A stretch of 24,862 bases of DNA from a virus, in the IMG/VR virus record IMGVR_UViG_3300031951_001138, positions 1 to 24,862 of that record. One strand, 5' to 3'. How positions within the stretch are numbered: the first letter of the stretch is position 1; each line of letters starts with the position of its first letter. A model generated the notes under the pieces. It searched no databases. It had not been told where the DNA came from and saw only the letters and a program-made list of their open reading frames with translations. Positions 6,000-22,678 of this stretch are shown here, one piece after another. Position numbers and translations under genes: made by a program.

Positions 6000-6092
6000 T
6001 CACATCAGCACCCAGATACCGAGCTTGATTAAGCCAATCAGCGAAGCGACTAGGAATGACGCGACGGTAAACCCGATCAGCCAATCAAGCAT
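6000..6092 (-). CDS. Small membrane peptide in the lysis cassette (30 aa)
   Basis: This short ORF is MLDWLIGFTVASFLVASLI followed by GLIKLGIWVLM. Almost the whole chain is one hydrophobic helix. It has a strong Shine-Dalgarno (GAGGAG, 7 nt before the ATG) inside the gap between two lysis-cassette genes, and no other gene explains the 98 nt between 5999 and 6096. Its stop lies 1 nt upstream of the next ATG, which suggests translational coupling. It could be a holin partner, an antiholin or a small structural membrane peptide. No family is recognised. Confidence 0.6.
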   Translation of the reverse strand: MLDWLIGFTVASFLVASLIGLIKLGIWVLM

Positions 6093-6096
6093 CGGT

Positions 6097-6297
6097 CTAC
6101 TCCTCTTCGGCTTTCGCCTTTTCCTTGGCGATCTTCAGGTGCTGGTGCTTGTACCAGATGTTTACCGCCAAGCCGATGATGGCGATAAAGAGGCCGCCGA
6201 AAGCCGCGATCTCGTTGGCCGTGAGGCCAAAGTAAACAGCGGCCCCGCTGCCGCCGTATTGCGCGGTGGTGGCGACTTTGACGACTTCGACGCTCAT
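6097..6297 (-). CDS. Holin, HP1-family-like (66 aa)
   Basis: The layout is a short polar N-terminus with YGGSG, then GLTANEIAAFGGLFIAIIGLAVNIWYKHQH with one clear transmembrane segment (about 28-49), then a highly charged Lys/Glu tail. The YG.SG...GLT.NE....G......VN.YYK pattern matches my memory of the HP1-type phage holin family. Holins form lesions in the inner membrane that let the endolysin out. It is the first membrane gene after the tail-fibre block and lies about 1.7 kb upstream of the GH108 endolysin in the same unit. The function is supported by topology, family resemblance and position. Confidence 0.85.
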   Translation of the reverse strand: MSVEVVKVATTAQYGGSGAAVYFGLTANEIAAFGGLFIAIIGLAVNIWYKHQHLKIAKEKAKAEEE

Positions 6298-7869: not shown

Positions 7870-8534
7870 TACGTCAGGCCCCCGCCAGAGATGACAGCTT
7901 CAGTCGCAGAAATGAATGCAATCGTCACAAGACCACGTTGCGCTAGTGTTCGGTTCCCAGTGTTAGCGGTGCCAACCTGGCGCAACGTCAAGCTCGACCC
8001 TTGCGTAATAGTGATGCTGGATGAGCTGTTGTTGTAGATGGTTACGACATCATTGGCCGCAAATACGTTGGCCGGGACAGTCACGCCTGCAGTCACAGCA
8101 ACAAGAGTACCCCGATCACCAATAACCAGAGTTCCTCCTGAGCTGGTTGTCGTAGGAGCCAGAAGGCTACGGAGGCGGTCGACAAATGCTGTTGTGGCAA
8201 TCGTGGTATCGGCTGTTTTTGCGGCTTGAGTAACCGCCAGAATCCCGGTCGGTATTGTTCCTGTGGAAATGTTAGACGCATTGAGGCTCGTCAGCGAGGC
8301 GCCAGATCCATTTGGCGCGAGAACATCAGTTCCAATCGCCAGACCGAGCGCAGTACGAGCAGCCGATGCAGTAGAGCCACCAGTTCCGCCCCTAGTAATC
8401 TTAAGGATCGGGCCGGCATCAAACAGCGCGTCGATGGTGTCCAGATCGGTATTGATCTTGGTGCCCCAGGTATCCGTGCTGGCGCCGACCTCGGGCTTGG
8501 TCAGCAATAGGTTTGTGGTAGTCGTATCGGCCAT
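7869..8534 (-). CDS. Tail fibre protein (221 aa)
   Basis: The N-terminus [38 protein letters not shown] is a widely shared phage tail-fibre opening. It is followed by the [20 protein letters not shown] motif (residues about 46-65) found in collar and fibre proteins. The rest is Thr/Ser/Gly-rich beta structure ending in VSGGGLT, in line with a trimeric fibre shaft or tip. A GAGGT ribosome site lies 5 nt before the ATG. At 221 residues it is short for a full fibre, so the following Gly-rich protein may form the distal tip. Confidence 0.88.
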
Positions 8535-19793: not shown

Positions 19794-20459
19794 TCATTCC
19801 ATCTTCTCGAAAGGTTTCATGCCGGCCGGGAACATTTTAGGCGCCTGACTTGGCGCATCAAGGTCCAGGTCGTTGCCGAAGTCGTCGAACCCTGAGCCGT
19901 TAGCCTGGACACTGACGACAGTCGCCGGCATACCAAGTGTCGCCTTCAGCCTGGCGATGTCGTTACCAAAGCCGGCCTCGAGCATCTTGGCGATCTCCTG
20001 GATCGACCAGACATTGCGATCCTCAACGTCTGGCCGCATTCGGTGATACGCCGCCGCGTCGGCCTCGGTTGACACCACTGCCAAGACGCCCCCGTCGTCC
20101 ATCTCCCACTCAATCGCCTTGACCTCACCCACGGGCGCAATGCCTTCGGCAGTAGCCCACTGCTCCATCGCCCGCATGGCCCTGATCATTCCATCGGCGG
20201 CCGCTCGGGCCTTGTCGATGTTCTGCGATTCCTGCGCAGCCCAGACCCGCTCCACCTGCGTCCACACTTTGATACGAAACTCTACATCAACCAAATTAAT
20301 TAATCTGCCGACACCCCACCGCTCCTCGTGCTCACGCTTTGCCGACTCCAGCTCCACCAGCTTGGATTTCCAGAAACGCGAGAACTCCGATTCTGGAAAC
20401 GCGAGCGGTTGCGGGCTGGGTAACTGACCTCGAATCTTTGCTGTTTTTTTGGTTGCCAT
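19794..20459 (-). CDS. Conserved phage protein of unknown function upstream of terS (221 aa)
   Basis: The sequence begins with a Lys-rich leader (MATKKTAKIRGQ). A helical middle follows (FSRFWKSKLVELESAKREHEERWGVGRLINLVDVEFRIKVWTQVERVWAAQESQNIDKARAAADGMIRAMRAMEQWA), then a short beta/helix part (IEWEMDDGGVLAVVSTEADAAAYHRMRPDVEDRNVWSIQEIAKMLE) and a disordered acidic end. The EERWGV.RL..LV motif and this layout recall proteins encoded just before terminase genes in alphaproteobacterial phages and prophages, without known role. AAGGAAG precedes the ATG at 20459. The decamer array ends less than 30 nt upstream of this start, so the array could act as its operator. Confidence 0.85.
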   Translation of the reverse strand: MATKKTAKIRGQLPSPQPLAFPESEFSRFWKSKLVELESAKREHEERWGVGRLINLVDVEFRIKVWTQVERVWAAQESQNIDKARAAADGMIRAMRAMEQWATAEGIAPVGEVKAIEWEMDDGGVLAVVSTEADAAAYHRMRPDVEDRNVWSIQEIAKMLEAGFGNDIARLKATLGMPATVVSVQANGSGFDDFGNDLDLDAPSQAPKMFPAGMKPFEKME

Positions 20460-20486: not shown

Positions 20487-20622
20487 GTGACCATTCGTCA
20501 CGGTCCGTGACGTTACGAATCGTAGCAAGATATACCCTTGCTACGATTCGTCACGCTCTTTCACGTACTTTCCGGCTGTGACGAATCGTCACGATTCGTC
20601 ACACGATTTGACCATTCGTCAC
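20487..20622. repeat. Phased GTGAC/GTCAC decamer array (iteron-like)
   Basis: GTGAC or GTCAC pentamers start at 20487, 20497 and 20507 and again at 20578, 20588, 20598 and 20618, exactly 10 bp apart (20 at the last step, where TTGAC at 20608 fills the gap). Another is at 20550, with TTCAC at 20560. The fuller unit is close to GTSACSATTC. The nonamer ATTCGTCAC occurs at 20493, 20546, 20594 and 20614, and its complement at 20578. TGACCATTCGTCACG occurs twice (20488, 20609). The array spans the 3' end of the primase-helicase gene and the gap after it. Origin iterons or operators are the likely roles. Confidence 0.82.
20511..20555. repeat. Perfect 15-bp inverted repeat (hairpin) inside the decamer array
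   Basis: ACGAATCGTAGCAAG (20515-20529) and its exact reverse complement (20537-20551) enclose a 7-nt loop. One mismatch further out, three more pairs extend the stem to 20511-20555. It begins 6 nt after the primase-helicase stop on the minus strand. No T-run follows, so it is not a classical terminator. The outer parts of the stem contain the array motif, so dimeric protein binding or a single-strand initiation hairpin is plausible. Confidence 0.8.
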
Positions 20623-22678
20623 GCTCTTCCCACTCCTCAATCCAGGCCCAATCGCCTTCAATTCTCACGTTCTCTGGCCGCCCAGAATCGCTCCTTACGC
20701 GCTTCCATGCAGCCCTAAACGCTGCAGATCCGGCCTCGTCATTGCCCATTTTTTGAGCAAATTCCGCCCTCCAATCCTCCACCTTCGCGCACTTCCTGGT
20801 GCCCGCCGACACCTTCCAATGTGTGCCTTTCTTATTAATTAAAGCCCTTAGCGCGTCCACCGCCAGCACCTGCTTCTTGCCCTTGCCTGAGCGATTTAGT
20901 CCTACATACTTCGCCTCAATCGCCGTCCGCTGCGCCGCTTCATCCGATGGATTGACGGCCAGAGACTTGCGCGGCTCATCAAGCGACAGCGTCGCGGCTG
21001 ACCCCTCATCGATGTCGATCTCGACCATCTCAAAGCCGTAGCGCACCCCGTCCTCGCCGTCCTTTTGCTTACTGATGGTGACCACACCCCGCGGCTGATC
21101 GTCAAAGCGCAGCAGCTCCAGCTCGGTATCCACGGCCCCGAGCAGCGATGAATGTCCCCGCAGCCCTTTAGCCTGGTCCTTACCTGAGTGGTGGATAACG
21201 AGCAGCGCGGCCTCGAAGACTTGCTGCAGGTGCCCGCAACTGGTGATGAATGCACCCATGTCCTCGGAGCTGTTCTCATTGCCCCCGCCGAAGGCCCGGG
21301 CTAGCGTGTCGATGACGATAAGGTCAATCTTTAGCTGGCGTGTTTCTGACAACTCGGCCACCGCAAGCATGAGCGAGTTGATGTCCTCGGTGCTGGATCT
21401 GAGGTTGATCTGGTGTCTGAGGATATAGATCGGGATGCCTGCGTTGATTTCGTGGTGGATGCGGCACGCTTTGATGCGCGCGCCGATGCCGCCGTGGCCT
21501 TCGCCGGCGATGTAGACCACGGCCCCGTTCTCGGACGGCGTCGCCGCTTGGCCCATCCACGGCGCTGCGCGCGCGATTGATGCGGCCAGATCCAGCGCAA
21601 TGAACGATTTGAATGATCCTGGCGGGCCGTACAGCGCGACAAAGCCGCGGCGAGGTATGACCCGCTCAATGAGCCACTCAACCGGCTCGTCCTTGATCTC
21701 ATCCCATGCCTCGAGGGTTAGGTTCTTGCGTGGTGGCGCTGCCGCGGCGGCTTGCTCATCCGTCGCGTTCGATTGTTTCACCAATTGTTTCTCGTTGACG
21801 TCATTGGCGAGCGGCTCCGGCGGCTTCTCGCGCAGCCGCTCGGGCGCTTGGACCTCTGTCTCCGAGGTGACCGGCGCTTGCGCCTTCACCAGATCGGCGA
21901 GGTCCTGGCGCGTCTTGCCTTGGCTGTAGATCCATTCGTAAGCATCGTCGCCCTGTTCCTCGCCGCCCAGGTCCACAACGCGGATTGACTTGGCAACGGG
22001 CAGCAGCTTTGCCGCGGCTTTCTTGGCGTACTTCCAGCCTGGCGTGTCGTTGTCGGGCAGGATCACGACGTTCGCGCCGGCAAAGTATTCCGTGATGGCG
22101 TCGGGCCAGGTGCCTGATCCTGCGTGGCTGGACGTGGCGACGCTGCCGAGGCTGATGATCGCATCGGCCGCCTTCTCGCCTTCCGTCAGGTAGACGTAGC
22201 GGCCTTTACTGACGGCGTCGCGCAGCTCTGGCAGCTTGTACGGCACGATGCGGGCGTCGCCCAGCGTGGCGTGTCTGCGCCCTGCCTCGTCCACCTTGAT
22301 CAGCTTGTAGTCCTTGCCCTTGGCGTCCGCGGTGCGAAATCGTTGCTTGATGAAAAGCGTCACACCTTCCTCGTCGCTGTAGTGCCACTCCTGCTCAAGC
22401 TGCCTGGTGATGGGCTTGATCAGCGCCAGAGGCTCGACGTTGCGGCCTTCCAGCTCCGGCAGGAAACCGCGTTCTCTCATGGTGGAGAACACGCTGCCCT
22501 GATCACACCCACCGTGACAGTGGAATAGCGCTTTGCCGTCCGGGCCTTCGCTAATCGACAGGGACGGGTTCTTATCGCCGTTGCCTCTGCCGTGCCCCGG
22601 GACTGGGCAGCTTGCCAACCATTGACCGTTTACCTTCTTCGCGTTGCCTAATTGCTTTGCGATTTCTTCGGCTTGCAT
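20561..22678 (-). CDS. Primase-helicase: zinc finger, TOPRIM, RepA-like ATPase (705 aa)
   Basis: The N-terminus has a zinc-finger-like CPVPGH...FHCHGGC set (C24, H29, C54, C58). A TOPRIM domain follows, with YLTEGEKAADAI (E167) and VVILPDNDTPG (D209, D211), as in T7-type and archaeal-type primases. A Gln/Ala/Pro linker (about 265-318) leads to a RecA-like ATPase of the RepA/AAA_25 type: Walker A ALYGPPGSFKS (348-358), Walker B IDLIVIDTLAR (D457) and LLVIHHSGKDQAKGLRGHSSLLGAVD (492-517). The C-terminal 120 residues look like an accessory or winged-helix region. It would lay primers and unwind DNA at the fork. The last codons overlap the decamer array. CTGAAGG precedes the ATG at 22678. It follows a terminator, so expression needs read-through or a local promoter. 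Confidence 0.94.
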   Translation of the reverse strand: MQAEEIAKQLGNAKKVNGQWLASCPVPGHGRGNGDKNPSLSISEGPDGKALFHCHGGCDQGSVFSTMRERGFLPELEGRNVEPLALIKPITRQLEQEWHYSDEEGVTLFIKQRFRTADAKGKDYKLIKVDEAGRRHATLGDARIVPYKLPELRDAVSKGRYVYLTEGEKAADAIISLGSVATSSHAGSGTWPDAITEYFAGANVVILPDNDTPGWKYAKKAAAKLLPVAKSIRVVDLGGEEQGDDAYEWIYSQGKTRQDLADLVKAQAPVTSETEVQAPERLREKPPEPLANDVNEKQLVKQSNATDEQAAAAAPPRKNLTLEAWDEIKDEPVEWLIERVIPRRGFVALYGPPGSFKSFIALDLAASIARAAPWMGQAATPSENGAVVYIAGEGHGGIGARIKACRIHHEINAGIPIYILRHQINLRSSTEDINSLMLAVAELSETRQLKIDLIVIDTLARAFGGGNENSSEDMGAFITSCGHLQQVFEAALLVIHHSGKDQAKGLRGHSSLLGAVDTELELLRFDDQPRGVVTISKQKDGEDGVRYGFEMVEIDIDEGSAATLSLDEPRKSLAVNPSDEAAQRTAIEAKYVGLNRSGKGKKQVLAVDALRALINKKGTHWKVSAGTRKCAKVEDWRAEFAQKMGNDEAGSAAFRAAWKRVRSDSGRPENVRIEGDWAWIEEWEERDEWSNRVTNRDDSSQPEST

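Follow-up and report, generated by a model that had tools for sequence, protein, structure and literature searches.

A short repeated word stands in several copies between the gene of a RepA-type primase-helicase and that of a 221-residue protein in a virus and its relatives, and from phage to phage it changes in all copies of the array together, along with the C-terminal domain of the helicase, which is either replaced or mutated. We consider it likely that this array is a replication origin which the phage's own primase-helicase reads through that C-terminal domain. The system is best read as an initiator-origin specificity cassette like those of the P4, SaPI and PLE replicons, but with a RepA-type helicase. 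A preceding sequence-only reading had guessed at an iteron-like origin read by the C-terminal domain of the primase-helicase, and this is now the best-supported interpretation, as the word co-segregates with that domain.

The window, that is the whole stretch of DNA analysed, comprises one entire IMG/VR virus record and is 24,862 bases long. Around the array its genes run on the minus strand in the order exonuclease, 192-residue protein, primase-helicase, array, 221-residue protein, TerS, TerL and SU10-like portal (Table 1). The only Pfam match of the primase-helicase is AAA_25 (RepA/RecA-like, 4.8e-41), it matches PHROG primase/helicase families, and several of its matches are annotated as RepA helicase, which places it with the RepA-type hexameric helicases rather than with those that have an SF3 or D5-type core; a search for a RepA_N DNA-binding domain gave no match at E 0.001. 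Primase, helicase and predicted DNA-binding domain form a single polypeptide, with no separate RepC or RepB' proteins. The DnaG/TOPRIM type of the primase part was assigned by reading the sequence, and this half appears to vary by group, being of a zinc/TOPRIM (DnaG-type) kind in the window and apparently of the archaeo-eukaryotic type in Roseobacter phages, while the RepA-type helicase and C-terminal domain seem to be common to both groups (20561-22678 in the window; L177:3352-5577). The 221-residue protein gave no usable Pfam or PHROG match and was modelled as a helical bundle, for which no convincing structural match emerged; it belongs to a widespread conserved phage family that in this group always lies directly downstream of the array. 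A DNA search of phage records returned no match, and a host search across bacterial genomes returned no relative.

Table 1. Positions of the array, its hairpin and the flanking coding regions in the window.
Feature	Position	Strand	Remarks
221-aa gene of unknown function	19794..20459	-	always follows the array downstream in this group of phages
Last unit cluster	20487..20511	-	adjoins the start of the 221-aa gene
Hairpin (near-perfect palindrome)	20511..20555	-	arms bear inverted units
Near-invariant hairpin core	20527..20539	-	AAGGGTATATCTT (AAGGGTATAYCTT in the window's clade)
First unit cluster	20576..20623	-	direct units and an inverted one; in the window it runs into the end of the primase ORF
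RepA-type (AAA_25) primase-helicase gene	20561..22678	-	705 aa, with a DnaG/TOPRIM-type primase part at the N-terminus
Coding region of the C-terminal domain, residues 598-683	20630..20887	-	predicted winged helix; candidate for reading the repeats
Predicted recognition helix 3, residues 652-662	20693..20725	-	AF2 topology
Codon of Ala656, the best word-predicting column	20711..20713	-	rank 1 of 888 columns

Eight exact GTGAC/GTCAC pentamers fall within 136 bp of the window (20487-20622); elsewhere in the window such clusters hold at most three, and in 200 dinucleotide-preserving shuffles at most four, and the density in the array is far above chance expectation. All seven pentamers listed in the sequence-only reading were found in place, as were near-matches at 20560 (TTCAC) and 20608 (TTGAC), and to these we add an eighth exact copy, GTCAC at 20550. 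The two 10-bp grids onto which the pentamers had been sorted are literally there, but they combine units of opposite orientation, and the helical phasing drawn from them, with a protein on one face of the DNA, did not hold up: across 90 distinct related arrays, units of the same orientation are spaced at a scattered 6-15 bp (modes 7 and 10-12), and a helical grid is therefore not a conserved property. It had also been noted that the units encode the end of the protein. The primase stop does lie within the array of the window (RVTNRDDSSQPEST), but a coding role is not upheld, because the primase gene stops 5' of the array in many relatives (for example L005, L006, L010 and L020), and the overlap is thus incidental. 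Absent from the earlier account are the concerted change of the word from phage to phage, described below, and the hairpin, the arms of which are 19 bp long and 95% complementary (20511-20529 and 20537-20555); the single-strand DNA fold of the whole array region has a z of -8.6, and the covariation of the stem was equalled in 0 of 500 shuffles.

Scanning viral contigs with the primase, the 221-residue protein and a distant homologue of the latter yielded about 150 loci. Related phages that have the gene and lack the array had been named as grounds for giving up the proposal, and among the relatives an array in which one word occurs two or more times is kept between the two genes at 126 of the 127 loci that hold both; the exception, L170, has one recognisable word copy. 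The arrays contain 2-11 units, each made up of a variable word of 4-5 nt and a nearly constant RAA ([A/G]AA), and follow a constant plan in which direct and inverted units lead to a hairpin with inverted units in its arms, then usually to one more unit, and then to the start of the 221-residue protein. The core of the hairpin is nearly fixed within a clade, being AAGGGTATAYCTT in that of the window, CGAGAGTCTAGAAGACTCG in a second clade and AACCCTTTAGGGTT in Roseobacter phages. One relative whose primase is 87% identical to that of the window bears the core type of the other clade (GAGTCTATGAAGACTC; L009:2400-2520), which implies that the hairpin core can be exchanged too. In two loci, L010 (past the primase stop, at about 6056-6230) and L012, the stop and the array are separated by an additional AT-rich stretch of about 170-200 bp, with degenerate units at its edges, perhaps a partial second array.

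Beyond these relatives the picture is mixed. Some very distant RepA-type helicase genes are without a clear array at the 3' end, namely those of Caulobacter GB2A, Microcystis Mae-JY30, Gordonia Puppers and a Salmonella prophage. Arrays with a hairpin do stand at the 3' end of such genes in Rhizobium phage RHph_N65, EBPR siphovirus 5, Burkholderia phage BcepGomr, Alteromonas phage XX1924 and, as the two weakest cases, E. coli phages IME_EC2 and sortkaff, and each of these distant phages has a word of its own; EBPR siphovirus 5 has GGCGGAAGTA and its relative RHph_N65 has GGCGGAGAT. The annotated gp17 of EBPR siphovirus 5 (L189:4702-4896) covers the iterons and is probably a spurious gene call. 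In the Manatee Spring phage the array adjoins the homologue of the 221-residue protein, and the helicase gene is some 1.5 kb away; the annotated start of this 218-residue gene (L089:7869-8525) reaches into the array, and its true start is likely the ATG at 7956. The same phage has coding repeats around GAACGTGCGTCC in the linker region of its RepA gene (L089:4980-5140).

An autoregulatory operator had been put forward as the alternative to an origin: the C-terminal domain, or some other regulator, would bind the array and control the 221-residue protein and the packaging operon, and replication would start elsewhere. The array does lie directly upstream of the 221-residue gene in all relatives, and it keeps that place in the Manatee Spring phage despite the distance of about 1.5 kb to the helicase gene. 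However, a scan of the array site for promoters and terminators found no sigma-70-like promoter and no T-run terminator, the proposed reader is a helicase-primase, and six to eleven copies together with a long hairpin exceed what an operator usually has. In RHph_N65 the array sits between two convergent genes, its neighbour being unrelated, a setting that favours an origin over an operator. The role of a lysogeny repressor is also unlikely in roseophages, nearly all of which are without an integrase (PMC12629253). We therefore regard an operator as an unlikely main function, although regulation as a side effect is still compatible with the data. GC skew gives no support for an origin at the array, since in complete Roseobacter genomes its detrended minimum falls at 8-9 kb, and the array, at 3-4.5 kb, is unmarked.

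The argument for an origin read by the helicase starts from the way in which the words vary. At least 14 words occur (GTGAC, GGTC, GTGTC, GGGAC, GAAC, GTTAC, GTAAC, GCGAC, GAGAC, GGGAAC, ATCAG, ATCGG, CTAC and GTAT), and in most arrays nearly all units carry a single one, which differs from phage to phage; in some arrays GTGAC and GGTC occur side by side. The words are essentially restricted to the one array, both in complete Roseobacter genomes and in long contigs, with no second site of the kind of P4 crr. Pairwise DNA alignments fall to an identity of about 0.4 between -360 and about +100/+150 around the gene end and exceed 0.9 outside on both flanks, and we propose that the last coding part of the helicase gene makes up, with the adjoining array, a specificity cassette of some 450-500 bp.

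Which protein follows the word can be seen in five Roseobacter phages with complete genomes, of which CRP-823 and CRP-811 have the word ACTACAAA and CRP-821, CRP-822 and CRP-831 the word TGTATAAA. The two groups are separated by 35 columns in the primase-helicase, nearly all within its last ~110 residues, by 10 in the 189-residue homologue of the 221-residue protein (three of them a difference in the N-terminal start) and by 0-1 in the other candidate proteins tested. The same holds more widely, among 90 distinct loci: in pairs with an ATPase identity of 0.95-1.0 the C-terminal domains are 84% identical between phages with a common word and 46% between those with different words, and the 221-residue proteins 87% and 86%. 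On trees of the C-terminal domain the word changes 16-17 times, against a minimum of 15, compared with 32 changes on the ATPase tree, 30 on that of the 221-residue protein and 62 when shuffled. The DNA-binding domain and the iterons co-vary as a module, as in PLE, and the 221-residue protein was rejected as the reader of the word, which it does not track in either the pair identities or the trees.

The C-terminal domain is predicted, with moderate confidence, to be a DNA-binding winged helix. Its AF2 model has the topology H-b-b-H-H-b-b and is of moderate quality (mean pLDDT 65.6, core about 70-88), and its best structural matches are the winged helices of ORC, Cdc6, MCM and CAP (Z 6-7.5). The structural matches listed do not include the winged helix of P4 alpha, an absence that is still compatible with kinship; a PDB sequence search with a profile of the domain gave no match.

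Within this domain a single residue of the predicted recognition helix goes furthest in predicting the word. Position 656 was noticed first by eye, and a later unsupervised ranking of all columns of both proteins, which took as its target the three bases preceding the constant part of the unit, placed it first with an AMI of 0.70 (next 0.54); its association with the word was reached in 0 of 2000 within-clade permutations. A matched-pair test gave 656 and 652, both in helix 3, as the top well-covered columns; column 693 headed that list and was set aside, as it lies in the poorly covered tail. Residue K goes with GAC followed by A, M or V with AAC, T with TAC, S with GTC, and A with GAC followed by G, the exceptions being L012 (GGTC with A), L030 (mixed words with S) and L111 (GTTAC with K). 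The pairings of K with GAC-A and of M with AAC both recur in two clades, between which the domains have an identity of only about 30%. The Manatee Spring phage, held out when the pattern was derived, has the word GGGAC-A and, in an alignment by eye, the residue K.

Co-segregation alone could be hitchhiking, as the C-terminal coding region and the array are physically adjacent and are exchanged as one block; the actual reader would then be a host factor or another protein such as that of the 221-residue gene, the array's constant neighbour. That gene serves as the control. Its start codon, 28 bp from the array, is nearer to it than the recognition helix is, yet the protein does not track the word, so linkage alone is insufficient. 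Residue 656, moreover, outperforms every other column with equal linkage, and its pattern reappears in different clades; the C-terminal domains of L025 (GGTC) and L050 (GAAC) are 91% identical, with S656M among their few differences; and an array is also found where the next gene is convergent and unrelated. A linkage artefact is, in our view, improbable.

The two remaining explanations we hold to be very improbable. Were the array a cos or pac packaging site, its units would be TerS binding sites and its hairpin the cut site; in the window it does lie two genes upstream of TerS-TerL, and cos sites likewise join repeats with a partly palindromic cut site, but CRP-823 has the same TerS and TerL as CRP-831 and CRP-821 (100% identical) and a different word, by which TerS as the reader is rejected (portal and HNH, too, are 100% identical between CRP-823 and CRP-831), the array is several genes away from terS in the CRP phages, and the hairpin core differs among clades. 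Were the hairpin an RNA element that works in the transcript as terminator, processing site or riboregulator, the strong fold and the stem covariation would fit, but there is no T-run, an Rfam search found no match, inverted protein sites predict the covariation equally well, and RNA pairing would not require the common word of the dispersed direct units.

From these comparisons of sequences we infer a mechanism in which the C-terminal winged helix of the RepA-type helicase-primase would bind the repeat word directly, as an iteron, and the array would act as the origin. Several copies of the word would load helicase hexamers beside the hairpin, the helicase-primase thus loading itself, and the conserved hairpin core at the putative origin would probably be the site where the DNA opens or a primer starts, comparable to the ssi hairpins of RSF1010. 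The phages would change word and reader jointly, either through recombination of the cassette or through changes of recognition-helix residues such as 656.

The principle is already known from P4, SaPI and PLE. P4 has a helicase of superfamily 3 (SF3) and carries repeats at a further site, crr. P4 alpha joins primase, helicase and C-terminal winged helix in one protein that binds repeats at the phage origin (PMC4234260); the same parts, with a predicted winged helix, are united here, but with a RepA-type helicase, one array, a unit-flanked hairpin and many words. The C-terminal domain of SaPI Rep (and of SCCmec Cch2) reads iterons directly downstream of the rep gene (PMC7581432), and here too iterons stand at the 3' end of a helicase gene; the helicase families are different, and the present case is one of tailed phages with a hairpin and a residue-level series of words. 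In the PLE satellites of Vibrio cholerae the DNA-binding domain of a RepA_N initiator and its iterons co-vary and are swapped as modules, with cognate pairing proven, and this switching is possibly driven by an origin-cutting nuclease, ICP1 Odn, which targets the PLE origin (PMC8263062). Reader and iterons are exchanged in the same modular way here, although PLE has an N-terminal DNA-binding domain, iterons of about 30 bp and two module types, in contrast to the at least 14 words and the predicted winged helix fused to a helicase-primase described above. The oriV of RSF1010 has iterons and hairpins for priming (ssi) and a separate helicase, RepA (PMC4234260), of the same family by name, but RepA, RepB' and RepC are three proteins and not one polypeptide. 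The pRN1-type origin, proposed also in phages such as BIP-1, is a stem-loop 3' of a gene for a primase-helicase-winged-helix replication protein (PMC4234260), but its helicase is of the SF3 type and iterons are absent. The novel features are a RepA-type helicase, a hairpin flanked by units, the number of different words and the residue-level word series. We found no description of the array in the open literature, and the paper on Roseobacter phages does not mention iterons (PMC12629253).

We give about even chances to the wider proposal that phages with a RepA-type helicase-primase carry a fast-switching origin "password", in which a fused winged-helix reader and its iterons co-evolve by exchange of the cassette and by single changes in the helix, with a readable amino-acid-to-base code. 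Putative origins become predictable from sequence alone for many environmental and isolated phages. The roughly 90 reader-word pairs, some of them near-identical and differing by a handful of residues, are a natural data set that makes an old question, how the specificity of initiator and origin changes jointly, directly testable. The frequent exchange of cassettes between conserved flanks suggests strong diversifying selection on phage origins, so far known mainly from satellites such as PLE. Candidate forces for the switching are origin-targeting nucleases, by analogy with ICP1 Odn and PLE (PMC8263062), or interference among co-infecting relatives, and the turnover of words may be driven by conflict with such relatives, with satellites or with nucleases that cut origins.
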